From assembly GCA_030147525.1 (NCBI GenBank), contig JASBVF010000056.1, positions 1 through 64,000 on the forward strand: a DNA stretch of 64,000 nt. The letters are read 5' to 3'. Positions 5,173 to 47,072 of the stretch are shown in pieces; positions within the stretch are counted from its first letter, which is position 1, and each line of letters opens with the position of its first letter. Origin of the DNA: Bacteroidota bacterium. GTDB taxonomy: Bacteria > Bacteroidota > Bacteroidia > Chitinophagales > Saprospiraceae. The position numbers and the translations under genes are program-made. The notes beneath the pieces were generated by a model that saw nothing but the letters and a program-made list of their open reading frames with translations, was not told the origin of the DNA and did no database searches.

Positions 5173-5250
5173 CCAAGATGAGAAAGTTGAGAAAATGAGA
5201 AAAGTGAGAATTTTCTCAACTTTCTCATTTTCTCAACTTTCTCATCTTGG
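5173..5250. repeat. Long hairpin of 8-9 bp TGAGAAAR units
   Basis: A near-perfect inverted repeat of about 78 bp. Each arm is a run of four TGAGAAA(A/G) units and the outer ends are CCAAGATG/CATCTTGG. It overlaps the 3' end of the minus-strand gene, so the last codons (KMRKLRK) and the TGA stop of the 802-residue protein are read from the hairpin arm. The architecture matches the GTRAATTR hairpins of the rnf region although the unit sequence differs. Confidence 0.8.
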
Positions 5251-30166: not shown

Positions 30167-31309
30167 TCACACCTCCCCATACACCGGCACCACAAAACTC
30201 CCCTTCAGAAAACCCTCCGGCTCAATCTGGCTCTGCAAAATCACCCCTTTCCGGGGCTTTTCCAGCAAATCCATCGCCGCCTGGAGCATGGGCACTGCCG
30301 TCGTCGTCTGAATGGCACGGAGTGTGTGCCGCCCGACCCGCTGCGGTTTTATCAGCTTCGCAACCTCCCGACGGCGCAGCGTGCCGCCGGCGTCTTTCCC
30401 TTCCACCGCAGCGTAGAGGATGATGCGGTCGTCCTCGATATGCGGGATGACCTCCTCCATCTTTTTTTGCAGGGCGGCGATTTTGTCTTTTTCATTGTTA
30501 AAACCGGCGAGTTGCTCCTTCACCCAACCGTAGTGACCGGGGTGGCGCAGGGTTTTATAGTCGAGCGATTTCACCCGGCCAGCCAGCGCATCAGGCAGGT
30601 CGGCAGCGCCGCCGGAGGTCAGGTCGTCCTCGTAGGCAATGCCGTCGATGATGATGGCGCCCGTTTCGGAGAGGGCCGGCAGGGTTGTTTTTTTGAAATT
30701 GCGAAGTACCACGGCGTCCTTTACGTACTCGGTCGCAACGCCGACGGGGCTCCAGGTGAAGCCGTAAAAATGCGGCGCCACGGCATGGTCGGTCAGCGCC
30801 CCGACTTTGAATTCGAGCTTGTCCACCTTGTCCACGCCGAAGTCCCGGCAAAATTTCAGGAACATGCCATGCGCCAGCACGTCGATGTAGCCGGGGGCAA
30901 TGCCGGTTTGCAGCACGAAGCCCGTCTCCGCATCCTTCGCCAGCGCCATGATTTCGTTGGTTTCGGCGACGTATTCGGTCATGTTCACGTAGTGCATGCC
31001 GAAGTCTTTGGCAAAACGGGCCATCCTGGGCGCCAGGCTGCCAGGCAGGCAGTCGAGTAAAATTTCACCCCTTGAAAAAACATCCTTCATCTCCTCCGTC
31101 ATCTCTGTTCCGTGGAGGTGGAAAGGTTTTACCTTGCATTCACCGGATATGCCCTCCTCAATCCAGCGGGCAACTTTCTGCGCTTTTGACAGCGTCCGGT
31201 TTCCGATAAAAATTTTCGGAGCCGTCCGGCTCCACTCGGCGAGCAGCAGACCTGCTGCCTCGGCGATTCCACCGGCGCCGGCGATGATGATGTGGTGTTG
31301 TTTTTTCAT
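30167..31309 (-). CDS. Saccharopine dehydrogenase-like oxidoreductase
   Basis: A 380-residue protein with an N-terminal Rossmann motif (IIIAGAGGIAEAAGLLLAEW) and the core of the saccharopine dehydrogenase/carboxynorspermidine synthase superfamily: ILLDCLPGSLAPRMARFAK, HYVNMTEYV, VLQTGIAPGYIDVLA and the substrate-domain segment KTLRHPGHYGWVKEQL. NAD(P)-dependent oxidation or reduction of an amino-acid C-N bond is expected. The true substrate cannot be read. It is 41 bp downstream of the small Cys-rich membrane protein, at the 3' end of the rnf gene run. Confidence 0.75.
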   Translation of the reverse strand: MKKQHHIIIAGAGGIAEAAGLLLAEWSRTAPKIFIGNRTLSKAQKVARWIEEGISGECKVKPFHLHGTEMTEEMKDVFSRGEILLDCLPGSLAPRMARFAKDFGMHYVNMTEYVAETNEIMALAKDAETGFVLQTGIAPGYIDVLAHGMFLKFCRDFGVDKVDKLEFKVGALTDHAVAPHFYGFTWSPVGVATEYVKDAVVLRNFKKTTLPALSETGAIIIDGIAYEDDLTSGGAADLPDALAGRVKSLDYKTLRHPGHYGWVKEQLAGFNNEKDKIAALQKKMEEVIPHIEDDRIILYAAVEGKDAGGTLRRREVAKLIKPQRVGRHTLRAIQTTTAVPMLQAAMDLLEKPRKGVILQSQIEPEGFLKGSFVVPVYGEV

Positions 31310-31350
31310 GAATTTGATTTTAAAAGGAAAGGGCAGATTCGATTTTCCGG

Positions 31351-31524
31351 TCAGTTTTTCTTTTGGCAGGCGCCGCTTCCGCAGCCGTAATTTCCGCAGC
31401 CTTCACCCAGATTGTCAAAGTGATTTTTGGTACCCATTTTTTTAGCTAAAAACTGAATGGCCACCCATCCGGCGGCGAGCAGCGCCAGGGCGAGGATGGG
31501 GAGGAGGTGGGAAAGAATTTGCAT
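31351..31524 (-). CDS. 57-residue Cys-rich membrane protein
   Basis: A short gene found by reading the gap. It begins MQILSHLLPILALALLAAGW, an N-terminal membrane helix, passes a basic KKMGTKNH stretch and ends with the Cys-rich tail GEGCGNYGCGSGACQKKN. Three cysteines within 11 residues could bind an Fe-S cluster or metal. It follows the rnf genes on the same strand. The design (one helix plus cytosolic Cys tail) recalls NqrM-type maturation proteins of the related Nqr complex, but the cysteine spacing is different. It may be an Rnf accessory or maturation factor. Confidence 0.65.
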   Translation of the reverse strand: MQILSHLLPILALALLAAGWVAIQFLAKKMGTKNHFDNLGEGCGNYGCGSGACQKKN

Positions 31525-31539
31525 TGAAAAGTTTGTTGT

Positions 31540-31968
31540 TTAGTCCATTTTATTCCTGAGTTTTTCTTCACTCCAGACATTTCCATAAATTCCATTTTTG
31601 GCAACCGATTTACTGAACCCCTTCTTTTCATCATCGGTAAAAAGTACAAATGGAAACCCATTCAATTCTAAAACCACATTTCCCCCAACTCCCCATTTCA
31701 CAGAAATATCATCTACAGTCAATTCGTGCTGATGACTCTTGGCAGTGGCAAAATCCAAAGTCATGGGTGGCGGTATTTGTTTCTTTCTAAATTCCTCAAA
31801 ATCAAACTTCTGTATCTTGATTTCATTCCTGCTGCACAGAAAACAACTTTTCTCTATTCTAATTTCGTTTGGAAATGTTAAGTACGCCCAAATCGAATTT
31901 TCATCCTCTTCGACAATTAAATACCTTCCCGTGATTTCGTCCTGGTCCTCAAAGAATATTGGTTCCAT
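31540..31968 (-). CDS. Hypothetical AT-rich protein
   Basis: A 142-residue soluble, acidic protein with no family I recognise. It begins MEPIFFEDQDEITGRYLIVE and contains RIEKSCFLCSRNEIKI (a Cys pair), then WGVGGNVVLELNGFPFVLF. The beta-strand-rich shape and AT-rich composition resemble stand-alone immunity-type or phage-defence accessory proteins, but nothing specific supports that. It lies between rnfA and the small Cys-rich gene on the same strand and looks like a recent insertion into the operon. Confidence 0.55.
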   Translation of the reverse strand: MEPIFFEDQDEITGRYLIVEEDENSIWAYLTFPNEIRIEKSCFLCSRNEIKIQKFDFEEFRKKQIPPPMTLDFATAKSHQHELTVDDISVKWGVGGNVVLELNGFPFVLFTDDEKKGFSKSVAKNGIYGNVWSEEKLRNKMD

Positions 31969-32011
31969 TCAGCAATTTTAATTTCACCTGAATAATCTGC
32001 CGGATAATAAA

Positions 32012-32590
32012 TCATCCCGCACTAAACATCCCCGCAAACCCCATAAACGCCATCGACAAAATCCCGGCGATGATGAGCGTCAGCGCCGTCCCTTCGACGA
32101 CTTTCGGGATGTCCAGCAGCTTCGTTTCTTCCCGGATGCCGGCCAGCAGCACCAGCGCCAGCGTCACGCCGCCGCCTGCACCGAGGGCATACACCAGCCC
32201 TTCGACCAGCCCGTAGCCCTTGTTTGTTGAAAACAACGCCAGCCCCAAAATAGCACAATTCGTCGTGATGAGCGGCAGGAAAATCCCCAGCGCCTTGAAC
32301 AGCGCCGGACTGAGTTTTTTAATGGCCATTTCTACCAGTTGCACCATGCTCGCAATGACGATGATGAAACTGATGAGCCGCAGGTACGGCGCATACGGCA
32401 GGACGAACGTGTTCAGCAGCCAGGCAAAAAACGCCGTGATGAGCATGACAAAAATGTTCGCCAGCCCCAGCCGGAATGCCGTCTCCAACTTCCCCGACAC
32501 CCCCAGAAACGGGCAGATGCCCAGGAAATACGCCAGGGTAAAGTTGTTTATCAGCAGCGCTGAGATGAATATCCAGAGAAGATTTTCCAT
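32012..32590 (-). CDS. rnfA: Rnf complex membrane subunit A
   Basis: A 192-residue integral membrane protein with six predicted helices. It has the RnfA/NqrE hallmarks LLINNFTLAYFLGICPFLGV near the N terminus, including the conserved Cys of the intramembrane Fe-S site, and a second half segment LITTNCAILGLALF with the matching conserved Cys. RnfA and RnfE together hold the membrane-embedded Fe-S centre that carries electrons across the membrane. The length is normal. It is downstream of rnfE on the same strand. Confidence 0.93.
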   Translation of the reverse strand: MENLLWIFISALLINNFTLAYFLGICPFLGVSGKLETAFRLGLANIFVMLITAFFAWLLNTFVLPYAPYLRLISFIIVIASMVQLVEMAIKKLSPALFKALGIFLPLITTNCAILGLALFSTNKGYGLVEGLVYALGAGGGVTLALVLLAGIREETKLLDIPKVVEGTALTLIIAGILSMAFMGFAGMFSAG

Positions 32591-32603
32591 GTCCTACTTT
32601 TTC

Positions 32604-32740
32604 ATCCCCGCAGGGGATTTGTTCATGTTAAAAGTGCTGGCGCTTTGTCATCGCCGAAGGCGACCTGCAACGTCATGAGGGAAGTCACTTTTAGCAGTCC
32701 TCACGACTTAGCAGTTCCTCTTCGAGGATGACAAGGGGGT
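32604..32740. repeat. Run of short hairpins between rnfE and rnfA
   Basis: The 152-bp gap holds a chain of small stem-loops: ATCCCCGCAGGGGAT (about 32605), TCGCCGAAGGCGA (about 32650) and CCTCTTCGAGGATGACAAG (about 32716). The last is the same unit found inside the gene near 6942. No promoter was identified. Confidence 0.65.
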
Positions 32741-32742
32741 GG

Positions 32743-33381
32743 TCAAATCACCTCTTTTGCACGCTCCTTCCGCTCCTTCCTCCAATTAAAAAACAGCAAC
32801 AAAAACCCCAGCGTAAAAAAACCGCCCGGCGGCAAAATCATCACCACCCACGGCTCGAAAGTGCTGCCAAACAGCGGAATATTGAACAGCGACCCGCTAC
32901 CTAAAATCTCCCGTATCGCACCGATGCAAAACAGTGCAAACACAAACCCGGCACTCATTCCGAAGGCATCCGCCAACGCCAGTTTCACATTGTTTTTGCT
33001 GGCAAATGCCTCCTGCCGCCCCAAAATCAGGCAGTTCACCACGATGAGGGCGATGAAAGCGCCGAGTTCCTTGTGGATGTCCGGCACCACGGCGGCGAGC
33101 AAAAAATCAATCACCGTCACCATCGTGGCGATGATGATGATGAACGTCGTGATGCGCACAGGCCCCGGAATCCAGTTGCGAAACAGCGACACCAGCAAGC
33201 TGGAAAACACCAGCACAAACATCGTCGCCAGCCCCATCGCCAGGCTGTTGATGGCGGTGTTCGTCACGGCCAGCACGGGGCACATACCCAGCACCATCAC
33301 GAAGACGGGGTTCTCCTTCCAGAGCCCTTTGAGGAACTCTTCGGCTGTGCGGTTAGTGATTGGTTCGGTGGTTTGGTTCAT
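32743..33381 (-). CDS. rnfE: Rnf complex membrane subunit E
   Basis: A 212-residue membrane protein of the RnfE/NqrD family. It contains LWKENPVFVMVLGMCPVLAV (conserved Cys) and IALIVVNCLILGRQEAFASK (second conserved Cys), the pair expected to ligate the intramembrane Fe-S centre together with RnfA. Six helices are predicted. It lies between rnfG and rnfA; the 5' gap contains a GTRAATTR hairpin. Confidence 0.92.
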   Translation of the reverse strand: MNQTTEPITNRTAEEFLKGLWKENPVFVMVLGMCPVLAVTNTAINSLAMGLATMFVLVFSSLLVSLFRNWIPGPVRITTFIIIIATMVTVIDFLLAAVVPDIHKELGAFIALIVVNCLILGRQEAFASKNNVKLALADAFGMSAGFVFALFCIGAIREILGSGSLFNIPLFGSTFEPWVVMILPPGGFFTLGFLLLFFNWRKERKERAKEVI

Positions 33382-33395
33382 GCCTGCTATTTTTT

Positions 33396-33509
33396 GTGAA
33401 TTGGTGGATTGGTAAATTGGTGAATTAGTAAATTGGTAAATTAGGACGGGGGCGGGACATGCGCAGCCTAATTTACCAATTCACTAATTCACCAATTTAC
33501 CATTTCACT
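33396..33509. repeat. GTRAATTR hairpin 1 (rnfG/rnfE gap)
   Basis: The left arm is a run of 8-bp units (GTGAATTG, GTAAATTG, GTGAATTA), the core GGACGGGGGCGGGACATGCG and the right arm the complement. It overlaps the TGA stop of rnfG. The core matches that of the hairpin at 34171-34257 in the same orientation. Confidence 0.85.
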
Positions 33510-34161
33510 GTGTTTTCAAATACCCCTCAATCGCCCCCTTCCACTCTCCAATCCCTTTGTTCAGCAGTTTCACCACCGTCTTCGACGAAATCGTCGCACC
33601 GGTGATAGCTTCCACTTCGTTCGGGTTTTTCTTTTCGCCCTTTTTCACCGACACGATTACCGGCTCGACGGACAGCGACTCGAACTGCACGGTGAACGCC
33701 TGGTCTTTGATGATTTTATCACCCAGCCCCGGCGTCTCTTTGCTGTCCAGCACCTCGAAGCCGACGATGGTTTTCGTCTCCGGCTGGTAGCCCATGATGC
33801 CGGCAATCACATCCTGAAAGCCCGGCTCGTCGGATGGAATAGCGAAGCCGACCAGTTTCCCTGCGTCGTCGTGTCCGGCGTAAATGGCTTTCGGCGGCTT
33901 GCTACCGGCGGCGGCTTTCACTTCTTTCAAAACGTCCAGTTTTCCATCGGTCAAGACCAGTGTCTCGAAACTCGTGCAGCTGGGCAACACTTTGTAAATG
34001 GCCCGTTCCAATGCTGCCGCCTTGTTGGCTTCAATCATCGGCAGGGTGTACAGGTACGCCCCCACCAGCAGCAAGCCGGAGAGGAGGCCAGCAATGCCGA
34101 GGGTGGCGATGAGGCGGGAGGAGCTGGGCTCCAGTGTCGTTGTATTTTTAATGTCGTCCAT
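33505..34161 (-). CDS. rnfG: Rnf complex FMN-binding subunit G
   Basis: The start MDDIKNTTT at 34161 is chosen; the upstream extension is read from a hairpin repeat. The 218-residue product has one N-terminal membrane helix (LIATLGIAGLLSGLLLVGAY) and a periplasmic FMN-binding domain with GLGDKI and EAITGATISSKTV. The Thr of the TGAT motif is the site to which FMN is covalently attached by ApbE in this family. RnfG passes electrons within the complex. Confidence 0.92.
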   Translation of the reverse strand: MDDIKNTTTLEPSSSRLIATLGIAGLLSGLLLVGAYLYTLPMIEANKAAALERAIYKVLPSCTSFETLVLTDGKLDVLKEVKAAAGSKPPKAIYAGHDDAGKLVGFAIPSDEPGFQDVIAGIMGYQPETKTIVGFEVLDSKETPGLGDKIIKDQAFTVQFESLSVEPVIVSVKKGEKKNPNEVEAITGATISSKTVVKLLNKGIGEWKGAIEGYLKTQ

Positions 34162-34170
34162 TTTATTCTC

Positions 34171-34257
34171 GTAAATTGGTGAATTAGTAAATTGGTAAAT
34201 TAGGACGGGAACAGGACGTGCGCAGCCCAATTTACCAATTCACTAATTTACTAATTC
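34171..34257. repeat. GTRAATTR hairpin 2 (rnfG side of four-helix gene)
   Basis: The arm runs GTAAATTG-GTGAATTA-GTAAATTG-GTAAATTA, the core is GGACGGGAACAGGACGTGCG, and the complement follows. It lies between rnfG and the four-helix-bundle gene. Its core is the reverse complement of the core of hairpin 3, so the two form inverted termini around that gene. Confidence 0.85.
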
Positions 34258-34266
34258 AACAACCCC

Positions 34267-34668
34267 CTACTTCGGCTTGCCACGTTTAGGATTCTTCTCC
34301 ATTTGCTCTTCGATGTAGTTGATGTAGTTATTCAAACGTTTTGCAAGCGTTTCATACCTTTCTTTCAAATCTTTGTACTCTTCACTGGTCACCAATTTCC
34401 GGCTATAGGCTTTCAGGAATTGGGTTTTTGATTCATACAACGAGCCTCTGCCATAAAAGCAGAAATTGCGGTTTTCACTATAAAAATACCTGCCGTAACC
34501 TTCGGCAATGTTGTTTGCCACAGAGTCCGTCGAATCCGTCCATTGTGCACCCAACCCCCGCTTGTTAAAATAATCCCATCGCTGCACTATTTTGTAAACT
34601 ATTTCCCCCAACTGCATGGCCAGCTTCCAAACCTCCAGGCTTTCAAGTCCCTTCCAATCGTTTTCCAT
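34267..34668 (-). CDS. Four-helix-bundle protein (23S rRNA IVS-type)
   Basis: A 133-residue all-helical protein of the four-helix-bundle/23S rRNA intervening-sequence family. The signatures are ESLEVWKLAMQLGEIVYKIV, SVANNIAEGYGR and the aromatic-rich helix NFCFYGRGSLYESKTQFL; the C terminus is basic. Family members occur inside rRNA intervening sequences and as orphan genes; a relative (Avd) partners the reverse transcriptase of diversity-generating retroelements. Here it interrupts rnfD-rnfG and is tightly flanked by hairpins in opposite orientation, 9 bp and 12 bp away. This suggests a small mobile unit rather than an Rnf gene. No reverse transcriptase or template repeat is present. Confidence 0.85.
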   Translation of the reverse strand: MENDWKGLESLEVWKLAMQLGEIVYKIVQRWDYFNKRGLGAQWTDSTDSVANNIAEGYGRYFYSENRNFCFYGRGSLYESKTQFLKAYSRKLVTSEEYKDLKERYETLAKRLNNYINYIEEQMEKNPKRGKPK

Positions 34669-34680
34669 AGTCGATTTTTT

Positions 34681-34772
34681 GTAAATTGGTGAATTAGTGA
34701 ATTGGTAAATTAGGCTGCGCCTGTCCAGTTCCCGCCCTAATTTACCAATTCACTAATTTACCAATTTACTAA
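34681..34772. repeat. GTRAATTR hairpin 3 (rnfD side of four-helix gene)
   Basis: Arms of GTAAATTG/GTGAATTA units surround the core GGCTGCGCCTGTCCAGTTCC, the inverted form of the core of hairpins 1 and 2. It ends at the rnfD stop codon. With hairpin 2 it brackets the four-helix-bundle gene. Confidence 0.85.
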
Positions 34773-35767
34773 TACCCATAAACCCTCGTCCTCGTAAACT
34801 TATTTATCAACGGCGTCGCCGCATTCATCAATAAAATAGCGTACATCACCCCCTCCGGCAGACCGCCCCAGACCCGTATCAGCACGACCAACAACCCAAT
34901 GCCGATACTGTAAATCCAGATACCCTTCGGTGTCAGCGGCGAAGTGACCAAATCGGTCGCCATGTACACCGTTCCGAGCAGCAGGCCGCCCGCCAGCGCT
35001 ATGAAAACCGGCGACGCAAATTTTTGAGAATCAATTAAATACAGTGCCCCTGACAGCACGCCCACCGCCAGCAGAATCCCCACCGGGATGCGCCAGTTGA
35101 TGATTTTCCGCCAGGCGAGATACAGTCCGGCGAGGATGAGCACCACGCCGCAAGTCTCGCCAAGCGAACCACTGATGTTTCCCAAAAACAAATCCATCAC
35201 GGGCGTCGCTTGCTGGCTGAATTTCATCTGCGCCAGCGGCGTTGCCATGGCTACAGCGTCCACCGTTTCACCCTGAAAAAACGGCAGGGCGAGGTTCGTG
35301 CCCCGTGCCGCCAGGTACTGACCGTCCGGGGCTTCCCAGGTCGTGATGGCCGTGGGGAATGCCGCCTGCAAAAACGCCCGTCCGAGCAGCGCCGGGTTGA
35401 AGATGTTCTGCCCCAGCCCACCCCAGATGATTTTGCCCATGCCGATGGCCACCACCCCGCCGAGGAAGGCCATCCACATCGGGAAGCCCGGCGGCAGGGT
35501 CAGCGCCAGCAGCATCCCGGTAATCATCGCACTGCCGTCCCGCAGCGAGGCGCCCCGCTGGGCATTTTTATCGAAAAACCACTCCGTCGCCAGGCACCCG
35601 GCAATGGCGGCCACGCTCACCAGCAGGGCGCTCAGCCCGAAGTAGTAAAACGCCGCCAGGAAGACCGGCACCAGCGTGTACACTACTTCCCACATGATTT
35701 TCGGGGTGGTATCCCGGTGGTGAAGGAAGGGGGAGGTGGAGATGGTTATTTTAGATGGTTGGACCAT
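34769..35767 (-). CDS. rnfD: Rnf complex membrane subunit D
   Basis: A 332-residue membrane protein with about nine to ten helices and the RnfD/NqrB pattern. STSPFLHHRDTTPKIMWEVV is near the N terminus, GLGQNIFNPALLGRAFLQAA is the conserved cytoplasmic loop, and DAVAMATPLAQMKF carries the Thr that binds FMN covalently. In most homologues this motif reads SGATPL; here it is AMATPL, with the Thr kept. RnfD forms the core of the ion-translocating part. The stop codon touches hairpin 3. Confidence 0.92.
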   Translation of the reverse strand: MVQPSKITISTSPFLHHRDTTPKIMWEVVYTLVPVFLAAFYYFGLSALLVSVAAIAGCLATEWFFDKNAQRGASLRDGSAMITGMLLALTLPPGFPMWMAFLGGVVAIGMGKIIWGGLGQNIFNPALLGRAFLQAAFPTAITTWEAPDGQYLAARGTNLALPFFQGETVDAVAMATPLAQMKFSQQATPVMDLFLGNISGSLGETCGVVLILAGLYLAWRKIINWRIPVGILLAVGVLSGALYLIDSQKFASPVFIALAGGLLLGTVYMATDLVTSPLTPKGIWIYSIGIGLLVVLIRVWGGLPEGVMYAILLMNAATPLINKFTRTRVYGY

Positions 35768-35828
35768 ATAATTATCAGATAATCAATCTTTTTACTAAAA
35801 AATAAAAATAACTGGGCTACCAAAACTT

Positions 35829-36668
35829 CTATTTGTTTTTGGAAGTGAAATATCGAATAGGAATTCTTTCTGCTGTTTTACCCCCTGACTTTTCATGTTC
35901 AAATTGAAGTCGAGCGACTTCAATAAGATTATTGATTGAACCTCCGTAAGTGAATTTGTCAGAAAAGTCATTTGGATTAAACTGCTTTTGAACTTCAATA
36001 TTTGCCACCACTTCTGGCTTTGCTTTGTCTTTTTTTAATGAAGAAGCATACATCCACGAAATAGCTGGTTCTTCCTTCCAAAGGGCAAAAGACATGACCA
36101 ATACATTTGACTTTTCAAAATTTTTTGAATCTGGTATTTGTGGTTGATTTATTTCTAAAGCAGCGATTAAATTGAGTCCATATTCGTCACCATTCACTGC
36201 TTCAAGGACGATTGCTCCGCCATAATTGCCATTTTCAAGTTTATATGCTAAACAATCTCCTTTTTTATAAACAGGCTCTACAATTCGCTTCTTCTTTCTC
36301 CTTCTTGGTTTTGGTTTATCTGTTTGCAGTTGAACTAAAAACTTATCAAGTGCAGCTTTTCGCTTTTTCAAATCACCGTTGCTCGCTCCAAGATTTCGCC
36401 ACACCTCAAGGTCTTCGCCCGACTCGATGATTTGTTTAACTCGCTGAAACACATCCCCATCAAGTTGTTTACATTCCCATTGAGCTTTTGCCAGGGCAAA
36501 CCAAAAGTTGTTTGCATCATCTTCGTCACCAATGACTTCACTGTTGTCTTCAACTAACTTTTTTGAAACATCCTTGACCTCCCATCCTTCGTTATATAAA
36601 TCAAAAAAATCCGCATATACGTCGGCATATGTGTCATTTGAAGAAATCGCTGTACCCCATGCTCCCAT
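35829..36668 (-). CDS. DUF4259-like protein
   Basis: A 279-residue soluble protein starting MGAWGTAISSNDTYADVYAD, the N-terminal signature of DUF4259. A helical region follows (to ~115), then a very basic linker (KPKPRRRKKKR), then a beta-rich C-terminal half (YKKGDCLAYKLENGNYGGAI). The function is unknown. It is clearly more AT-rich than the rnf genes on either side and sits between rnfC and rnfD, so it is probably a later insertion. Confidence 0.65.
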   Translation of the reverse strand: MGAWGTAISSNDTYADVYADFFDLYNEGWEVKDVSKKLVEDNSEVIGDEDDANNFWFALAKAQWECKQLDGDVFQRVKQIIESGEDLEVWRNLGASNGDLKKRKAALDKFLVQLQTDKPKPRRRKKKRIVEPVYKKGDCLAYKLENGNYGGAIVLEAVNGDEYGLNLIAALEINQPQIPDSKNFEKSNVLVMSFALWKEEPAISWMYASSLKKDKAKPEVVANIEVQKQFNPNDFSDKFTYGGSINNLIEVARLQFEHEKSGGKTAERIPIRYFTSKNK

Positions 36669-36737
36669 TTTACTATGCTTTTAAGTCTTAACATTTTTAC
36701 AATCCATAACCTCTGACTGCCACAGACGAACTGCCAC

Positions 36738-38096
36738 CTACCCCTCCTTCTCCCTCGCCTTCCTTTCCCTAATCATCGCCTTCCCCACCCGAAAACTCTG
36801 CACAAGCGGTATCCCCGATGGGCAGACGAACGAGCAGGAGCCGCACTCGAAGCAGTCCAGCACGTTGTAGTCCTCCATTTCCTCCCACAGCCCTTTGCGG
36901 GCGAGGGCGCCCATACGGGCGGGGTTGAGGAACAGCGGGCAGGCGTCGAGACAACGGCCGCAGCGGATGCAGTTCAGCGTGTTGATGTCCTGCACCTCCT
37001 GGTCGGTCAGTAGCAGGATGCCGGAAGTGCCTTTCACCACTGGCACGTCGAGGTTTTTCTGCACGGCGCCCATCATCGGGCCGCCGAGCAACATGCGGGG
37101 CGATGGGTGCGTGAGACCGCCGCAGTAGTCCACCACCTGCCGCATGGGCGTACCGATGGGCACGAGCACATTGGCCGGACGCTTCACCGCCGTACCGGAA
37201 ACCGTGACGACCCGCTCAATCAGCGGCAGTCCCTTGCGGAAGTATTGCGACATGGCCACAATCGTCCCCACGTTGGAGACCATCGTGCCGACGTCGAGCG
37301 GCAGCTTGCCCGCCGGGACTTCCTCGCCGAGAATGGCCGAAATCATCATCTTTTCCGCCCCCTGTGGGTATTTCACCTCCAGCCCCACCACCTCAATGTC
37401 GAGCCGGCTCTTTTTCGCCGCTTCCCGCAGCACGAGGATGGCGTCGGGTTTGTTCGCCTCCACGGCGATGTAAACTTTTTCCGCAGGAACGAACCGTTGC
37501 AGGATTTCACAGCCGTCAATCAGGTCGCCGGCGTACTCGACCATCACCCGGTGGTCGCAGGTGAGGAAGGGTTCGCACTCGCAGCCGTTCATCATCAGGT
37601 ACTTGCAACTCTTGCCTTCGGGAATGGAAAATTTCACATGCGCCGGAAACGCCGCCCCGCCCATGCCGACCAGTCCGGCCTGCTGCACGGCTGCGATGAA
37701 TTCTTTTGTAGTCAAATTTTCCGGCGGCGTGGGCAGGTTCACCGCCAGTTTTTGGGTGGAAAAGGGGTCTGTTTTGATTTTGATACCCGGCGCCATCTGC
37801 CCGTTCGGTTGGTCGAACAGGTCAATCGCCGCCACCGTGCCGTCCACCGGGGAGTGCAGCGCCACGGAGACGAAGCCGCCGGGTTCGGCAATCATTTCGC
37901 CCCGGCGTACCCGCTGCCCTTCCTTCACCACCGCCTTCGACGGCGCCCCGATGTGCTGCCCCAGCGGCAGGATGTACTCCTCCACAAACGGCATCCGCTC
38001 TATCCGGCTGTTGCAGGAGAGTTCCTTGAATTCTTCCGGGTGTACGCCGTGCCGGAAGGTTTGGAGGGGGCCGATGGCGGTGGATGTATTTTGCAT
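36738..38096 (-). CDS. rnfC: Rnf complex NADH-binding subunit C
   Basis: A 452-residue protein with the full RnfC layout: GQHIGAPSKAVVKEGQRVRR near the N terminus, the NAD/FMN-binding loop GMGGAAFPAHVKF, MMNGCECEPFLTCDHRVMVE, then two ferredoxin motifs CIRCGRCLDACP (~376-387) and CFECGSCSFVCP (~412-423). RnfC is the peripheral subunit that exchanges electrons with NAD(H). All eight cluster cysteines are present. The 5' gap carries hairpin 4. Confidence 0.93.
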   Translation of the reverse strand: MQNTSTAIGPLQTFRHGVHPEEFKELSCNSRIERMPFVEEYILPLGQHIGAPSKAVVKEGQRVRRGEMIAEPGGFVSVALHSPVDGTVAAIDLFDQPNGQMAPGIKIKTDPFSTQKLAVNLPTPPENLTTKEFIAAVQQAGLVGMGGAAFPAHVKFSIPEGKSCKYLMMNGCECEPFLTCDHRVMVEYAGDLIDGCEILQRFVPAEKVYIAVEANKPDAILVLREAAKKSRLDIEVVGLEVKYPQGAEKMMISAILGEEVPAGKLPLDVGTMVSNVGTIVAMSQYFRKGLPLIERVVTVSGTAVKRPANVLVPIGTPMRQVVDYCGGLTHPSPRMLLGGPMMGAVQKNLDVPVVKGTSGILLLTDQEVQDINTLNCIRCGRCLDACPLFLNPARMGALARKGLWEEMEDYNVLDCFECGSCSFVCPSGIPLVQSFRVGKAMIRERKAREKEG

Positions 38097-38108
38097 TCGT
38101 TATTACTT

Positions 38109-38187
38109 GTAAATTGGTGAATTAGTAAATTGGTGAATTAGGTTGGGGCCCAGCCCAATTTACTAATTCACCAATTCACTAATTTAC
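38109..38187. repeat. GTRAATTR hairpin 4 (NifJ-like/rnfC gap)
   Basis: GTAAATTG-GTGAATTA-GTAAATTG-GTGAATTA, core GGTTGGGGCCCAGCCC, then the complement. The right arm provides the last residues (GVN) and TAG stop of the 1283-residue protein. The core differs from hairpins 1-3. Confidence 0.85.
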
Positions 38188-41100
38188 TCCTCTCATAGAA
38201 AGCGCCAGCAACTTCTCCCGCAACTTCACCTTTACATCCGCCATCACCGCCGCCTCTTTTTTGGCCAGTTGCGATTCGTAATCTGCCCGTACGTCCGCCA
38301 GTTTTGCCTCGTATTTTTTCGTCAATTCCGCTTCGGCTTCCTTCCAGAGTTTTTCCGGGTAAGGCGTTAGCGTTCCGGCGATTTCACGCAGGGTATGCCA
38401 TTGATTTTCAGCGGCTTGGGCTGCTTCTACGACTTGGCGGGAGGCCACCCAGCGTTGTAGTTCGCCGTTTTCACCCAAAGAAAAAATCATGGCCACTTTG
38501 CCCTCCCTCGCCGATGGTTCCAGCGCCAGCAATTCGGCGACAGGCAGCAGGTTTGCCTCGTCCTCCAAAGCTGGCCGGAAGTGCGACGCCCAGTTGACCT
38601 GCGTGAACAGCCAGTCTGCCAGCGTCAGGGTGTAAGGTTGCGATTTTTGTTCGTCTTTTTCGATAAAATTCAACTCCGCTTTATGCCAATTTTCCTCTGC
38701 CGACGGATTTCCTTCCAGCGAGATTTGCGTTGAAAGGAAGCCACCTTTTTTCACTGGGTCAAAAGCAAAAAACGGAAAGGCACGGGTCTCCAGCGCCAAC
38801 TTCGGTAAAGCCGTCCAATCAACCGCCGTGTGCTGCACTTGGTAGGGGGCGAGCAGGTGGAAGAAGGCCGGGCCGGGGCGTTGCAAACCTTTCAGCAGGT
38901 TGTTGAAAAGCACCTTGCCGCCATCCATAACTCCCTGAAAGACAAAGGCTTTACGGAGCGCCAGTGCCGAAAGCAGCAACGTGTTGTTTTTACTAAAATT
39001 CACCGCCGCTTCGCCGTCAGGCGAGAGCTGACCATCGTTCAGTACGATGATTTTTATCGGAAAATCACCTGCCAGCAGGCTGTTCAGTTGGGTGAAATTT
39101 TTCTCCAGAAAACTATCCCGGCTGCCTACCAGCAGCATCGGCGGCACGAGGCGTTTTTCGCCCTCCTCCAAATCCTGCCAGCGCAGGGCGGCGATTTTCG
39201 GAGCATGCACATCGGGCTGGTACTTGTCGTTGGCTTCGAGGCGGGCACGGCGCAGCAGGCGCAGGTTGTCGAGCGCATGGCGCAGGTAGCCCCGGAAAAG
39301 GCCCTCGGCCAGTTCCGCTGTCACACCGTTTTTATCAAAAATCACGGGCGTCGTGAAGGGGTTGAACGGGAACGCAGCGCCCGGCAGCGAGCCGTCGTGC
39401 AGCGCCAGTCCGAAGCGGGAACGTCCCATGCCGTTCGGTCCCTCGGTGAGCAGCCAACGGAGTTCCTTCAGGTCGTTGACGAGCTGGATTTTGCGTTGCA
39501 AAAGCGCCGTGTCCAGCAATTTGAGATGCTCCCCGGCGCCGAGTTTTCCGAAGATTTCATCCATCGGCAGGCGCTTGCCTTGGGCCTCGGCGATGGCATT
39601 CCAGAGTGCCGACGAGTCGTCCTTTGGCAGGGCGCCGCTGAGTTTTTCATGGATGTTTTCGGAGAGGTTTTCAATCAATTTTTCTACCTCCCGCACCTGT
39701 TCCACCACGCCCGGTTGCACGGCGGATTCGGTGAGCGCCGTGAGCCAGTGCAGCAGCGTTTTCGCCGGTGCGCCGGATTCGCCGAGGCTGCCGCCCGTCA
39801 TCGAAAGGTAGTTGAAACGGCTGAGCAGCACGGCGGCGAATGGGTTGTAGTCGCCGTCGTTCACCTGCCGCCGGATGGCGTCGGAGGCGGTATCGGGCAG
39901 TTGCTCCCAGGTACTGAAATTTCGCTCCGTTTGCGCCAGCAATTCGGGCGTTTGGGCGCTCATCGTAAGGGCGTCTTCGGGGCAAATTTGAGCGCAAAGT
40001 CCGCAGGCCGTGCAGGCGTGCGGGTCAATGGCGAGTGAGAACAGTTCGCCGCTGCCCTTTTCACGGGTTTCATTTTTTTCAAAAAACGCCTCTGTCACAG
40101 CCACCGGGAAGTCCGACAGCACGGAGAGGAGGTTGGCGAAATCACGCTGGGCGTTCTCCAGTTTTTCGCCGGTGAGGTTGAGTTGGGTGGTCAGTTTTTC
40201 AAATGCAAATGGCAGGAAATCGCCCGCCAAAGTGACGGGGTAACTTGAAGTTACCCCGTCACTTGAGGCAGCGTCACTTGAGGCCGAGCGCACCACCTGC
40301 GCCGACACCTTCCCCAAATTTTTCACCAACGGCGTCAGGCTTGAAACGCTCAGCCCCTGCCGTCCTGCGATGTCCATGCCGCCCCGCAGTAGGCTCTCAA
40401 AACCCAGCGCCACGGGCGGAATCGCCGAGTGCGGGCACTGCACGAAACAGGTCCCGCATCCCGTGCATTTTTCAGGTAAAAAAACGGGCAGCTCCGTTCG
40501 CCGGGCGTCCATGCCGGACAGCCCCGCCGTCGTAGCGGGCATCACGGGTAGTGCCTGAAACGGGTCGGCGATGAGTTCCTGCGCCTCACCGGACTGAAAA
40601 AAATAGGCGGCATCCTGGTAAAAACGGCTCAGCCGGGAGTAGGGCGGGCCGAGGTTTTTGTGCTTGCGCACGACGAGGGGCAGGCCGAGGTTGCTTTCCT
40701 TACCACGGTTGAAACCGTGGGTTGAAATTGGTTCCTCGGGCAGCGTTTCGTCCCCGATTCCGGGGTACTCCCGTGCGATGGTTTGCAGCAGGACTTCGTG
40801 CTGCGGGTAGTCGGTTTTGTTTTTGGTGAAATGGAGGCCGAGGTAGTAGCGGCGTTTGGCTTTGTCGCCGAGGAGCATGTTGCGTAGGGCGGCCGTGATG
40901 AGTTTTACCAAATTTTCAAAATTTGGTAAATCTAACTGCCCGGAAATCAATGCCAGTTCCTTCTTTTTATCCCAAAAATGCCCGCCTGAAGGCCCACCTT
41001 CCAACGCCGCTTTCACCTGTGTAAAAACGGGCGGCTCACCCATCTGGACACCATCCACAGCTTCAAGCACCGTCACGGCTTTTTTACCCGAAAGCAATTT

Positions 41101-42030
41101 TGCCAAGTCCTCCGCTGGGAAGGGGCGCACCAAGTTCAGATTCAGGCAGCCCACTTTTGCTTTTTCTTTGTTTCGCAATTCATCCACCGCTTCAGTTGCT
41201 TTTTGAAAAACGGCACCCTGCGTAACCAGCACGTAATCAGCATCATCCACCCGGTGGGCGCTCACTGGTGCGTATTTCCTTCCCGTCAATTTTTCAAACT
41301 CGGCAAACACCGAGGCGAAGATTTCCGGCAAATGCTGGTAGAAAAACCGCTGCCGTGCCGCCGCTTCAAGTGATTGTGTGTGGGCGTCTTTTTCCACGCC
41401 ATTCACCGTCGGGAAGTCGAAGTTGAACCAGTTGGGCAGCCTCCGGCGGGTATCGCCGAAGAGCATTTTCTGGGCGGGTGTCGGGCAGGCGATTGGCTCG
41501 TCCGGGTCGCCGAGGAATTGGCGGATGGTCGTTTGGTCAGGAAATTTTACGGGCTGCTCGCCGTCAAAGTTATGAAAAACGATACCCGGCACGAGCGACA
41601 ATTCTGCCACCCGGTGGGCGATGAGAGCAAAATCCACAGCCTCCTGGGTGGTGTTGGCGATAAGTTGGAAGCAGCCGGAGCCGCTCAAGTTAGGCGGTAA
41701 CTTCAAGTTACCGCCTAACTTTGGCACCACATGTACCACCGCCCCGATGTGCTGCCGGGCGAGTGTGCTCAGTTGCCCCATATTTTTCACCAAATCCTCC
41801 TCTTGCACGAAGCCCGCCGTCCGCAAGCCACTGGAAGCGATTCCCAACAGGTAGGATAAGTCGTTGGAAGCGAAGCGGTTGGGGGTTCTGCCGAAGGTGT
41901 GTTCGACGGGTTTTGATTCCCAGCCCACTGGCGTCAGGATGCCTTCGCTGATGCTGGATTCGAGCAACTGGACTGCCTCGGGGACAGTCAGTGTTAAGGA
42001 TTCACCGTGTATTTTAAGTTGCTTTTGCAT
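38179..42030 (-). CDS. NifJ-derived giant Fe-S protein with degenerate ThDP domain
   Basis: A 1283-residue protein built on the pyruvate:ferredoxin oxidoreductase plan. Residues ~15-250 are PFOR domain I-like (ASSGLRTAGFVQEEDL, AVDFALIAHRVAEL). Residues ~265-345 are domain II (DYVLVTQGAVFQKATEAVDE, LNLNLVRPFP). The gamma domain is missing; chain continues through YYLGLHFTKNKTDYPQHEVL. Two ferredoxin motifs follow, C522TGCGTCFVQCP and C673TACGLCAQICP. The ThDP-domain remnant (~740-1160) has GGSLGESGA where NifJ has the Cys-rich GACAGCGE, and LLVGSRDSF where GDGW should bind Mg-ThDP. The C-terminal 90 residues are a coiled coil. It should carry electrons but not do PFOR chemistry; a scaffold or electron hub is likely. 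Confidence 0.75.
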   Translation of the reverse strand: MQKQLKIHGESLTLTVPEAVQLLESSISEGILTPVGWESKPVEHTFGRTPNRFASNDLSYLLGIASSGLRTAGFVQEEDLVKNMGQLSTLARQHIGAVVHVVPKLGGNLKLPPNLSGSGCFQLIANTTQEAVDFALIAHRVAELSLVPGIVFHNFDGEQPVKFPDQTTIRQFLGDPDEPIACPTPAQKMLFGDTRRRLPNWFNFDFPTVNGVEKDAHTQSLEAAARQRFFYQHLPEIFASVFAEFEKLTGRKYAPVSAHRVDDADYVLVTQGAVFQKATEAVDELRNKEKAKVGCLNLNLVRPFPAEDLAKLLSGKKAVTVLEAVDGVQMGEPPVFTQVKAALEGGPSGGHFWDKKKELALISGQLDLPNFENLVKLITAALRNMLLGDKAKRRYYLGLHFTKNKTDYPQHEVLLQTIAREYPGIGDETLPEEPISTHGFNRGKESNLGLPLVVRKHKNLGPPYSRLSRFYQDAAYFFQSGEAQELIADPFQALPVMPATTAGLSGMDARRTELPVFLPEKCTGCGTCFVQCPHSAIPPVALGFESLLRGGMDIAGRQGLSVSSLTPLVKNLGKVSAQVVRSASSDAASSDGVTSSYPVTLAGDFLPFAFEKLTTQLNLTGEKLENAQRDFANLLSVLSDFPVAVTEAFFEKNETREKGSGELFSLAIDPHACTACGLCAQICPEDALTMSAQTPELLAQTERNFSTWEQLPDTASDAIRRQVNDGDYNPFAAVLLSRFNYLSMTGGSLGESGAPAKTLLHWLTALTESAVQPGVVEQVREVEKLIENLSENIHEKLSGALPKDDSSALWNAIAEAQGKRLPMDEIFGKLGAGEHLKLLDTALLQRKIQLVNDLKELRWLLTEGPNGMGRSRFGLALHDGSLPGAAFPFNPFTTPVIFDKNGVTAELAEGLFRGYLRHALDNLRLLRRARLEANDKYQPDVHAPKIAALRWQDLEEGEKRLVPPMLLVGSRDSFLEKNFTQLNSLLAGDFPIKIIVLNDGQLSPDGEAAVNFSKNNTLLLSALALRKAFVFQGVMDGGKVLFNNLLKGLQRPGPAFFHLLAPYQVQHTAVDWTALPKLALETRAFPFFAFDPVKKGGFLSTQISLEGNPSAEENWHKAELNFIEKDEQKSQPYTLTLADWLFTQVNWASHFRPALEDEANLLPVAELLALEPSAREGKVAMIFSLGENGELQRWVASRQVVEAAQAAENQWHTLREIAGTLTPYPEKLWKEAEAELTKKYEAKLADVRADYESQLAKKEAAVMADVKVKLREKLLALSMRGVN
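40232..40262. repeat. In-frame 31-bp palindrome in NifJ-like gene
   Basis: A perfect palindrome, GTGACGGGGTAACTT-G-AAGTTACCCCGTCAC. Its inner GGTAACTT-N-AAGTTACC core is shared with 41687-41721. It encodes part of the linker after the first Fe-S motif (GVTSSYPVT), next to two CGTCACTTGAGGC direct repeats. Confidence 0.85.
40703..40720. repeat. In-frame 18-bp palindrome in NifJ-like gene
   Basis: CCACGGTT-GA-AACCGTGG, in frame and coding for HGFNRG in a loop of the 1283-residue protein before its first Fe-S motif. Confidence 0.75.
40904..40930. repeat. In-frame 27-bp palindrome in NifJ-like gene
   Basis: TTTACCAAATTTT-C-AAAATTTGGTAAA, a perfect palindrome with a single-base centre. It codes for LPNFENLVK in the region after domain II. 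Confidence 0.85.
41687..41721. repeat. In-frame 35-bp palindrome in NifJ-like gene
   Basis: AAGTTAGGCGGTAACTT-C-AAGTTACCGCCTAACTT, a perfect 17-bp stem with one central base, coding for KLGGNLKLPPNL. Its core is the same as that of the palindrome at 40232-40262. Confidence 0.85.
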
Positions 42031-42042
42031 GATTTTTTTGCT

Positions 42043-42315
42043 TCATCTTGGGGCTTGGAATGTTGCATGTCCGTCACAGATTTTCATGGAAGGATGAAGT
42101 ACTACTTTTCCTTCCTCCGTCAGGACTACTTTTTGGCGACTAATTAGAAAGTTGAGTGCATTTTCTTTCGGAAAAGCATTTCCCGAACATGCACCAAAGT
42201 GAACATCAGCGCCCCACGTGTTACCGATGGCTTCTACCAACTCTTCAGGTGTCCAGTGTCCGTTATTCTTTTCGACTAAAAAGATTACCTCGTGTATGTG
42301 CTTTATGTTATTCAT
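42043..42315 (-). CDS. YecH-like small metal-binding protein
   Basis: The start at 42315 (MNNIKHIHEVIFLVE) matches the family start; an upstream ATG adds 13 unrelated residues. The 90-residue product has the YecH/DUF2492 pattern: a helical N-terminal half (WTPEELVEAIGNTWGADVHF), then a Cys-containing GACSGN, a helix and a C-terminal CDGHATF. The conserved Cys/His residues are thought to bind metal. It starts between rnfB and the NifJ-like gene and ends 12 bp before the latter, so it is co-transcribed. Its function in the cluster is unknown. Confidence 0.75.
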   Translation of the reverse strand: MNNIKHIHEVIFLVEKNNGHWTPEELVEAIGNTWGADVHFGACSGNAFPKENALNFLISRQKVVLTEEGKVVLHPSMKICDGHATFQAPR

Positions 42316-42431
42316 GTCTTTTGTTGCTTTTGCATGATTTTTCTTGGCGCCCACCCCTGACCCCTAAAGGAAGACCACTTCGGGAAGTGCGCAGGTATTT
42401 GCAGATTTGGTTCCCCTTCAGGGATCAGGGG

Positions 42432-43313
42432 TCAAAAATTCTCCTTAAACCCATACTTCTCCACCCGCCCCGTCGGCAGCCACGTCCCTTGAATTTTGGC
42501 GAACTGCGCCTCCTCCACCCACACAATCGCATCGGTGGGACAGCGGAGGGTGGCGTCGATGGTCGCCAGGTGGTTCAGGTCGTAGTTGATGACGGCGAGG
42601 TTGTTTTTGATTTCAATCAGCCCCGGTGCGGCGTCGGCAACGCAGCGTCCGCAGGCGGTGCAGGCGACGGAGCATTTGTTTAGCGCCAGGTCGCCTTCCA
42701 GCAGCGATTTGCACTGCACGATGAGCTTTTGACTGACGGGGTACAGCTCGAACAGTCCCTTCGGACAGGCCACCACGCAGTCGTTGCAGGCGACGCATTT
42801 TTCGGGGATGACCACCGGCAGACCATCGTCGTTCATCACGATGGCGCCGAAGTCGCAGGCATCGGCGCAGTCGCCCAGACCGATGCAGCCCCAGGAGCAG
42901 GCTTTCGGTCCGCCCGTCACGACGGACTCGCCACGGCAGGTGCGCAGCGTTCCCCGGTATTCGGCGAGGTTGTGCGCTTCCCGCTTGCCACCGGCGCAGA
43001 GCAGCCTTGCCACCCTGCGCTCTTCCGAACCGGCATCCACACCGAGGTATTCGGCGATGCGGGCCAGGCCATCTGCCGACGAGACGGTGCATTTCGACAC
43101 GGCCACCTCACCTTTCACCACCAACTCCGCAAAGGCCCGGCAGCCGGGTTGCCCGCAGGCGCCGCAGTTGGCGTGGGGCAGCATTTCCTCCACCTCGTCG
43201 ATGCGGGGGTCTTCGTACACCTTCAATTTCTTGTAGGCAACGGCGATGACGGCGGCGAAGAGGAGTCCGAGGCCGCCGACGATGGAAATGGCTATGATGA
43301 TTTCGTTTAGCAC
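42432..43313 (-). CDS. rnfB: Rnf complex Fe-S subunit B, with fewer cluster ligands
   Basis: A 293-residue protein with the RnfB N-terminal membrane helix, KVYEDPRIDEVEEMLPHANC and the first cluster motif CGACGQPGC, followed by ferredoxin-type segments. CVACNDCVVACP is complete. Compared with RnfB of other Bacteroidota as I remember it, CIGCGDC reads CIGLGDC, the next motif reads CTACGRCVADAAP (last Cys gone), and the final motif reads NHLATIDATLRCP (three Cys gone). RnfB normally takes electrons from ferredoxin through these clusters. The subunit may still work with a shorter chain, or the NifJ-like protein may replace the lost clusters. Confidence 0.88.
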   Translation of the reverse strand: MLNEIIIAISIVGGLGLLFAAVIAVAYKKLKVYEDPRIDEVEEMLPHANCGACGQPGCRAFAELVVKGEVAVSKCTVSSADGLARIAEYLGVDAGSEERRVARLLCAGGKREAHNLAEYRGTLRTCRGESVVTGGPKACSWGCIGLGDCADACDFGAIVMNDDGLPVVIPEKCVACNDCVVACPKGLFELYPVSQKLIVQCKSLLEGDLALNKCSVACTACGRCVADAAPGLIEIKNNLAVINYDLNHLATIDATLRCPTDAIVWVEEAQFAKIQGTWLPTGRVEKYGFKENF

Positions 43314-43319
43314 GGTTTG

Positions 43320-43444
43320 GTGAATTAGTAAATTTGTGAATTGGTAAATTGGGTGGGGCGCTGAGTGAATTGGTGAATTGGTGAATTAGTAAATTGGGTT
43401 AGGACCCAGCCTAATTCACCAATTTACTAATTCACTAATTTACT
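43320..43444. repeat. GTRAATTR hairpin 5 (853-aa gene/rnfB gap)
   Basis: A compound element: a first run of GTGAATTA/GTAAATTT units with core GGGTGGGGCGCTGA, then a second run (GTGAATTG x3, GTGAATTA, GTAAATTG) with core GGTTAGGACCCAGCC and a complementary right arm. The right arm supplies the TAA stop of the 853-residue protein. Confidence 0.85.
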
Positions 43445-46001: not shown

Positions 46002-46012
46002 CGGGATAGATT

Positions 46013-46969
46013 TTACACCGCAAACGCCTCCAACTTCCTTTCAATCGCCGCCATCTTTTGTTCCGGCGTATAGCCCAGGTTGTGCGCCCCGTACAGGTCG
46101 TACCGCAGCGCTTGTTTGTTTTGATAAAACAGGCCGAGGTAGGTCATGCTTGGGTCCTCGGCGAGGGTGCGGGCGGCGTTGATGTCAGTTGGGTCGTGCT
46201 GCACGTGGTGGGTGAACATGCGCTCGGTCGACTCGTCCGGCTGGATGCCGTTTTCATGCATGAGCAACTGCACGGTGTCCCGCTCACTGACTTTTTGCTT
46301 CGCAAAATCGGCCATGAACTTCGGGCAGCGCATGGATATTTTCACAAAAGAAAAACCCTGGTGCTCGTAAGCGGCCTTGATGGTGGCGTACAGGTGGCTC
46401 GGCACCCAGTCCACGGTCTGCGCCACGAAGCTGACGTTCGACACGCCGAGCGTTGTCTGGATGGGGTTGACCGGGGGCAGCACGGAGCCTTCCGGGTGGG
46501 TGTTGGAAATGGTACCCATCGGGGAGGTCGGCGAAGTCTGCTTTTTAGTCATACCGTAAATCTGGTTGTCGAACAGCAGCACAGTCAGGTTCATGTTGTA
46601 GCGGATGGCGTGGAGCCAGTGCCCTGCGCCGATGGAGCAGCAGTCGCCGTCGCCAGTTACCACGAAAACGTGCAGATCGGGGCGGCGGAATTTGACACCC
46701 TCGGCCACAGGAAACGCCCGCCCATGCAGACCGTGGAAGCCGTAGGTATCCATGTAGTGCGGGAAGCGGCTGGAGCAGCCGATGCCGGACACGAACACAG
46801 TCTTTTCCGGCGGCAATTGCTTTTCAGCGCATAGCCGCTGCACAGCATGGAGTACGGAGTGGTCGCCGCAACCGGGACACCAGCGGGCGATGCCCTTGGT
46901 GTAGTCGCTCTGCGGATGGTAGGTTTCGGGGAGGTCGATGGCGCAGTAGTCGTTGTTTAAGCCGAACAT
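46013..46969 (-). CDS. korB: 2-oxoacid:ferredoxin oxidoreductase subunit beta
   Basis: A 318-residue ThDP- and Fe-S-binding subunit. RWCPGCGDHSVLHAV provides two cluster Cys, VSGIGCSSRFPHYMDTYGFH follows, and VVTGDGDCCSIGAGHWLHAI...VLLFDNQIYGMTKKQTSPTS is the GDG-X-N Mg-ThDP motif. The TKKQTSPTSP segment is typical of KorB. With KorA it oxidises a 2-oxoacid (2-oxoglutarate is most common) plus CoA to acyl-CoA and CO2, reducing ferredoxin. Length and residues are normal, so this is the catalytic centre of the cluster. Confidence 0.92.
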   Translation of the reverse strand: MFGLNNDYCAIDLPETYHPQSDYTKGIARWCPGCGDHSVLHAVQRLCAEKQLPPEKTVFVSGIGCSSRFPHYMDTYGFHGLHGRAFPVAEGVKFRRPDLHVFVVTGDGDCCSIGAGHWLHAIRYNMNLTVLLFDNQIYGMTKKQTSPTSPMGTISNTHPEGSVLPPVNPIQTTLGVSNVSFVAQTVDWVPSHLYATIKAAYEHQGFSFVKISMRCPKFMADFAKQKVSERDTVQLLMHENGIQPDESTERMFTHHVQHDPTDINAARTLAEDPSMTYLGLFYQNKQALRYDLYGAHNLGYTPEQKMAAIERKLEAFAV

Positions 46970-46975
46970 GATGTT

Positions 46976-47072
46976 AGTGAATTGGTGAATTAGTGAATTG
47001 GTGAATTGGTGAATTGGTGAATTAGTGGGGGACCCTCCTAATTTACCAATTCACTAATTCACCAATTCACTC
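46976..47072. repeat. GTRAATTR hairpin 6 (korA/korB gap)
   Basis: GTGAATTG/GTGAATTA units repeated six times, core GTGGGGGACCCTCC, then a complementary right arm. The right arm supplies the final residues (LVN) and TAG stop of KorA. Confidence 0.85.

Follow-up and report, generated by a model that had tools for sequence, protein, structure and literature searches.

The four-helix-bundle (FHB) gene that stands between rnfD and rnfG in the 64,000-nucleotide stretch of DNA analysed here (the window) on balance probably belongs to a family of selfish cassettes of about 0.5-0.7 kb in which no known transposase gene was found, free-standing relatives of the intervening sequences (IVS) of 23S rRNA. 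The shared layout of these cassettes, the enrichment of FHB genes within it, the linkage between arms and gene, a change of place between sister species, the reuse of gaps, the gene-free hairpins with shared units and the purifying selection on the protein are supported by comparison of sequences; it is from this comparison that we infer mobility. The window lies on contig C54 of G000, a 7.08-Mb draft of 59 contigs whose gene content points to Bacteroidota, and the genomes with which it was compared are drafts as well.

The window locus and its counterpart in a sister species

The Rnf operon of the window runs on the minus strand. The genes and hairpins of this region are as follows:

34267-34668, minus strand: FHB gene, 133 aa, recognised by the PF05635 and TIGR02436 family models
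34769-35767, minus strand: rnfD, the upstream host gene, by family models
33505-34161, minus strand: rnfG, the downstream host gene, by family models
34171-34261: hairpin A, between the FHB stop and the rnfG start; inverted copy of B
34681-34771: hairpin B, between the rnfD stop and the FHB start; its core matches a solo hairpin in the same gap of G001
33404-33508: gene-free hairpin of the A/B family, in the rnfG-rnfE gap
38109-38179: gene-free hairpin of the A/B family, upstream of rnfC
43317-43438: gene-free compound hairpin of the A/B family, upstream of rnfB; in G001, the FHB unit occupies the orthologous gap
46987-47077: gene-free hairpin of the A/B family

The initial annotation had described an FHB gene between two inverted hairpins of about 90 bp, and this arrangement was confirmed: A and B are inverted copies of each other over 86 nt at 90%, and the protein scores 87.6 bits against PF05635 (cut-off 33.8), is matched by TIGR02436 as well, and resembles in sequence the solved structure 2gsc, Xanthomonas XCC0516 (E 3.9e-8). 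The 91-bp hairpin copies lie 5 and 12 bp from the gene, so that the larger of the distances given earlier (9 and 12 bp) is correct and the smaller is not. Each hairpin has internal arms (31 and 37 nt) built from TRAATTRG-type 8-mers in tandem; 39 copies of the arm pattern AATTRGTRAATTRG were counted in the window, compared to a mean of 0.00 in 100 shuffles. In RNA folding, hairpin A has a z-score of -8.3 and hairpin B one of -10.8, and none of 200 shuffles reached their stability; scores of -14.6 and -7.0 were obtained for two further hairpins of the operon, and -0.9 for a fifth stretch, which covers only half of the 43317-43438 hairpin. The inverted-arm score of the whole unit is 63.5, and its complementary termini could form a stem around the ORF. 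The earlier proposal of long termini built on reverse-complementary GC cores holds for A and B with respect to the inversion, but GC cores vary, and the recurrent terminal feature is the tandem arm of 7- or 8-mers.

A Pfam scan of the window FHB unit found PF05635 alone, with no recombinase, nuclease or reverse transcriptase, and no reverse transcriptase was found among nine further window genes scanned (32012-46001). Inspection by eye of flanks at the rnf gaps of G000 and G001 and at two other FHB loci of G001 (C43 and C113) revealed no target-site duplication.

The rnfD gene of the sister species G001 is 93% identical to that of the window. Its rnfD-rnfG gap holds one hairpin and no FHB gene, and the core of this hairpin equals that of hairpin B at 24 of 25 positions (compared by eye). 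The FHB orthologue of G001 (86% identity), which carries an in-frame stop, is located between rnfB and the orthologue of the window gene 43440-46001, with two hairpins flanking it. The pattern is reciprocal: where one genome carries hairpin-gene-hairpin, the other has a solo hairpin. The FHB gene was said to split genes that are normally adjacent, and rnfD and rnfG are indeed adjacent in G002, G014 and G033 (rnfD 73-77% identical), with neither an FHB gene nor an A/B-family hairpin between them; in G002, the stop of one and the start of the next overlap. The unit is thus not fixed at one place in all relatives, an outcome that would have spoken against mobility according to the initial annotation. 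The simplest history suggested by these gaps is that the unit arrived after the split from G002, G014 and G033, and later changed place. Mis-assembly of the G000 and G001 drafts is a possible cause of the apparent change of place; however, it is not favored because the hairpin cores around the G001 FHB gene differ from each other.

Several other features were noted in these operons. The rnfC-rnfD gap of the window contains an ORF (35829-36668) with no Pfam match, and the gap between a PFOR-like gene and rnfB contains another (42043-42354), in place of which the same gap of G001 has GCCCCAGCGGGGC-type repeats. A further tandem-armed hairpin with a different, 9-bp unit is found at 5173-5250 in the window.

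The related gene-free hairpins that had been reported in neighboring gaps were found, at the four positions listed above. It should be noted that rnfG is likewise flanked by hairpins of the A/B family, so flanking by this family is not specific to FHB genes. A longer arm pattern of the family has 132 matches in G000 and none for the reversed control; across 148 genomes (G000 included), many matches were found besides only in G001 (39), with six in G002 (control 3) and one to four in each of six other genomes. We dropped the family as an FHB-specific marker since only one of the seven FHB genes of G000, that of the window, lies within 1.5 kb of it, the other six having arms of other units. Therefore, the expected genome-wide association of FHB genes with hairpins fails in part if this family alone is considered, but all seven genes have inverted arms of their own. 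The idea of a small mobile unit with inverted termini and gene-free relatives gained support from the different gap in G001 with its reciprocal solo-hairpin sites, from the like layout at most FHB loci of related genomes and from the linkage between arms and gene. The A/B hairpins are genome-wide and bracket an ordinary gene too.

The second Rnf operon of G000 (L103, G000:C11:1-16000) has A/B-family hairpins in four places; the matching operon of G001 (L111, G001:C116:1-16000) has one pair of arm matches and offers empty sites. Another gene of G000 (L104:3283-4035, contig C1), which we take to be a V-ATPase D-like subunit, lies between two nearly identical hairpins, with a local hairpin spread along its operon and no FHB gene. 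At the rnfD stop of G007 (L047, C4) and G011 (L048, C546), there are short tandem arrays with no marked inverted partner (hairpin scores 5 and 4), which could be early or decayed hairpins. In G010, the 34 matches of the reversed control pattern belong to a second octamer family; the octamer family of this genome is GGTTRAAT. Among its loci L135 and L136, the FHB gene on contig C302 is directly downstream of a GGTTRAAT hairpin, at the contig end, and that on C221, matched in two frames, is between GGTTGTT-type repeats.

Bracketing, arm sharing and selection

We scored bracketing by comparing the 200 bp upstream of a gene to the reverse-complemented 200 bp that follow it, and considered a locus bracketed at a score of 15 or more. 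The sample comprised 118 PF05635 loci from 31 genomes (seven from G000, 93 from 12 genomes with 117 matches, and 18 others); six loci with flanks below 60 bp were dropped, which left 112 loci in 30 genomes. The assignment of start codons followed a simple rule and is wrong in some cases. Inverted repeats bracket 85 of the 112 loci at a score of at least 15 and 56 at a score of at least 20, although these counts are not independent because many loci are orthologues. None of 30 PIN-domain control genes from 12 genomes reached 15, and three had a hairpin inside one flank. The arms are locus-specific: mismatched flanks reached 15 in 14 of 790 pairs within a genome and in 35 of 2240 pairs between genomes, and dinucleotide-shuffled flanks in 0.36%. 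The seven FHB genes of G000 scored from 21 to 63.5, with units that differ. Upstream arms were periodic in 64 of 85 loci, with period 7 in 39 and period 8 in 18, compared to 7% of letter-shuffled arms. Their C content is 8%; in left arms of tandem hairpins, gene-free and gene-bearing, it is 3-4%.

We also analyzed a set taken without choice by repeats, namely the 849 ORFs of at least 90 aa in a 1.28-Mb sample from G000, G001 and G007. Bracketing was found for 13 of 14 FHB ORFs versus 13 of 835 others (Fisher p about 1e-20), and for 4 of 251 when the others were restricted to 90-200 aa (p about 1e-17). The lone unbracketed FHB ORF (G007:C21) scores 68.5 with another start. The sample lies mostly on FHB-bearing contigs; thus, its FHB density is not representative, while the comparison within it is. 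The bracketed non-FHB ORFs include rnfG of both G000 and G001 and a PDDEXK_3 (PF13366) gene of G001 (L342:2622-3014, contig C80), which has long inverted repeats of another kind, with a score of 66-71. Neither the fetched loci nor viral contigs yielded a relative of the PDDEXK_3 gene; the locus is possibly a sister cassette that carries a nuclease-family gene.

Arms and gene are linked. We compared arms between bracketed loci, excluding pairs with similar flanks (BLASTN) and alignments shorter than 60 residues. For these non-syntenic pairs, arms were alike in 5 of 6 at an FHB identity of at least 80%, 12 of 21 at 70-80%, 5 of 22 at 60-70%, 2 of 74 at 50-60%, none of 183 at 40-50%, and 15 of 2931 below 40%, a class that includes pairs without a BLAST match. 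Pooled, arms were shared by 17 of 27 pairs at 70% or more versus 15 of 3114 below 50%. For example, the FHB genes of G001:C43 and G001:C113 are 82% identical and have the same arm unit, while BLASTN found no similar neighbors; at both loci, each arm starts where the upstream gene has its stop codon. Where syntenic pairs were compared, their scores include flanking coding sequence.

The dN/dS ratio was 0.02-0.07 in 7 of 10 close FHB pairs, the other three being not computable (saturated dS); the ratios are rough because several dS values exceed 1.4, and six of the seven are above 1. Values of this size are indicative of an FHB protein that is kept for its function, despite the scatter of the gene. 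Some FHB copies carry internal stops.

Stop-codon sites, proposed mechanism and alternatives

The nearest upstream ORF was co-directional in 78 of 82 FHB loci, compared to 21 of 29 PIN controls, for which orientation was measured from the gene and not from arms. The distance from the upstream stop to the arm has a median of 3 bp among the 78 co-directional loci. The downstream ORF, by comparison, has the same direction in 49 cases and the opposite direction in 33. In the 1.28-Mb sample, tandem-armed hairpins number 55, at a density of 3.5-4.7 per 100 kb, and 51 of them have no FHB gene; 35 of the 55 are within 12 bp of a stop codon, versus 47 of 134 other hairpins.

Gene-free hairpins share units with FHB arms of the same genome. 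With the four hairpins that adjoin FHB genes removed and a match defined as a score of 18 or more, 10 of 28 FHB arms matched a solo hairpin in the sample of their own genome, versus 8 of 171 trials with arms from other genomes (p about 1e-5). The numbers were 12 of 28 versus 16 of 171 at a threshold of 14, and 11 of 28 versus 14 of 171 at 16. When FHB arms of G000, G001 and G007 were compared to each other's samples, 6 of 56 matched solo hairpins (p 0.009). It should be noted that some of the matches of the window FHB arms lie within its own operon.

Two sets of observations show that certain stop-codon gaps are used repeatedly. The FHB genes of G003:C213 (L217) and G005:C47 (L214) occupy the same gap (flanks 86-88% identical), while the FHB sequences are only 55% identical and the arms are different. 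The gene upstream of the G001:C43 unit was found in 13 other genomes; eight of these have a hairpin with a score of at least 15 at that gap, a repeat array in G000 scores 13.5, and four genomes score 12 or less. Arms were shared in 1 of 45 pairs of hairpins at this gap, and the G007 hairpin there carries the unit of another FHB gene, G007:C36 (score 19.5).

The cassette, as we see it, consists of a 5' arm (mostly tandem 7- or 8-bp units, C-poor), the FHB gene and an inverted 3' copy of the arm, placed directly after the stop of a host gene and in the same direction; given this position, it could be transcribed with that gene. The arms could pair in RNA to form a long stem with the FHB ORF in its loop, as in the 23S rRNA IVS, with which the cassettes also share the protein family and the position in a transcript; we propose that they are free-standing members of the IVS lineage that live in 3' ends of mRNAs. 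The FHB protein may bind the hairpin of its own arms, either in RNA or in single-stranded DNA, and may favor, with host enzymes, its insertion at other stop-codon hairpins by copying or recombination; this role is suggested by the co-divergence of arms and protein, by the purifying selection and by the likeness to Avd. The solo hairpins would then be non-autonomous or residual copies, and cutting by RNase III might limit damage to the host transcript. A wider claim would be that FHB proteins recognise the tandem 7/8-mer hairpins of their own kind and insert hairpins, with or without the gene, at stop codons of bacterial chromosomes as a new class of mobile elements without a conventional transposase, that arm units co-diverge with the protein, that the repeat-armed hairpins of these genomes are largely FHB products, and that the 23S IVS is a branch that landed in rRNA; we offer this as a tentative extension, possible and still doubtful. 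If FHB genes mark, and perhaps drive, hairpin-bounded selfish cassettes, their copy number and scatter would be explained, the 23S rRNA IVS would gain a free-living relative, and a source would be proposed for the locus-specific heptamers and octamers that are repeated between bacterial genes.

Since tandem-armed hairpins are common without an FHB gene, the hairpins may spread alone, by a host or element enzyme, with the gene as cargo that is carried by homologous recombination between arms and has no part in movement. The near-identical direct and inverted repeats that make up the arms fit such a process, as does the flanking of the V-ATPase-like gene by two nearly identical hairpins and of rnfG by hairpins likewise. 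However, 13 of 14 FHB ORFs are bracketed versus 13 of 835 others, arms remain with the FHB lineage across species and sites, and the gene is under strong purifying selection; we regard this explanation as rather doubtful. The same selection is what a host-serving, RNA-binding regulator would show. If the hairpins were its binding sites in mRNAs and in its own autoregulation, the sense orientation at stop codons and the units shared between solo hairpins and FHB arms of one genome would follow, with nothing that moves by design. Such a regulator would have to differ in position between G000 and G001, to occur as armed copies at unrelated sites, also within one genome, to be represented by different copies in one gap of two species, and to include copies with internal stops, and we consider it unlikely.

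Arms could also arise in place, by slippage or template switching at stop-codon repeats, with FHB genes merely tolerating them and the likeness between arms being leftover synteny or chance. The arms are indeed simple repeats, and units differ between species in one gap, with the single shared pair among 45 at the G001:C43 gap. Yet the threshold is seldom reached by shuffled flanks, PIN genes are not bracketed, and arms are conserved between FHB relatives that are not syntenic, which makes an origin in place very improbable.

Related systems and distribution of the family

The closest known counterpart is the IVS of 23S rRNA (S23p/IVP gene; Coxiella, Leptospira), which also has a PF05635-type gene in the loop of a terminal-inverted-repeat stem. 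This stem-loop with its ORF is reported to be removed by RNase III, and in the Coxiella IVS a terminal stem of 28 bp and tandem heptamers ahead of the start codon have been described (PMC4990558). In contrast, the FHB units described here are located at stop codons in gaps of protein operons, often with many copies per genome, differing units and gene-free hairpin relatives. The window unit, between rnfD and rnfG, is not inside a 23S rRNA helix, and Rfam gave no match within 31000-48000 of the window.

The REP/REPIN elements with their RAYT genes are dispersed palindromic repeats in which a gene is flanked by related hairpins and many copies are gene-free. The FHB units share these three properties, so the comparison to REP and RAYT made in the initial annotation stands as an analogy only: the window unit contains no Y1 transposase, FHB proteins are not Y1 tyrosine transposases, and FHB arms are tandem 7/8-mers that vary by locus. 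RAYT was rejected as a driver of the A/B family; G000 has four PF01797 genes, and no A/B-family arm is found in their fetched flanks. We know of no established function for PF05635 proteins outside retroelements.

The Avd protein of diversity-generating retroelements is a four-helix bundle with a stated likeness to PF05635 and is essential to retrohoming (PMC10053308); none of the nine neighbors of the window FHB gene that were scanned is a reverse transcriptase.

Intergenic tandem heptamers beside coding genes, to which the FHB arms are similar, include the STRR of cyanobacteria. The TAACTGA heptamers are another case, in which direct repeats lie mostly just upstream of start codons, and the text of that paper does not contain the terms S23, intervening, four helix or four-helix (PMC4679880). 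Intergenic heptamer arrays were thus already known. A link between free-standing FHB genes and flanking tandem-repeat hairpins was not found among the matches listed in a search of the open literature.

The bracketing weakens with distance. It was found for 79 of 95 FHB loci in the 13 best-sampled genomes, for 6 of 17 loci when 17 further genomes of the order were represented by a single locus, and for 11 of 30 loci, chosen by family score, in a sample of the phylum, where mismatched pairs gave 6 of 870. Of 118 genomes sampled across the phylum, 90 contain matches to PF05635, and some FHB genes are close to contig ends. Single-protein queries, a weak test, gave no FHB relative in plasmids and viral contigs. 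In contigs of named genomes there were seven loci with FHB relatives, five of them full-length and all distant, and two of these five belong to candidate phyla. With 250-bp flanks, four of the five full-length genes reach a score of 15 or more, and one scores 13.
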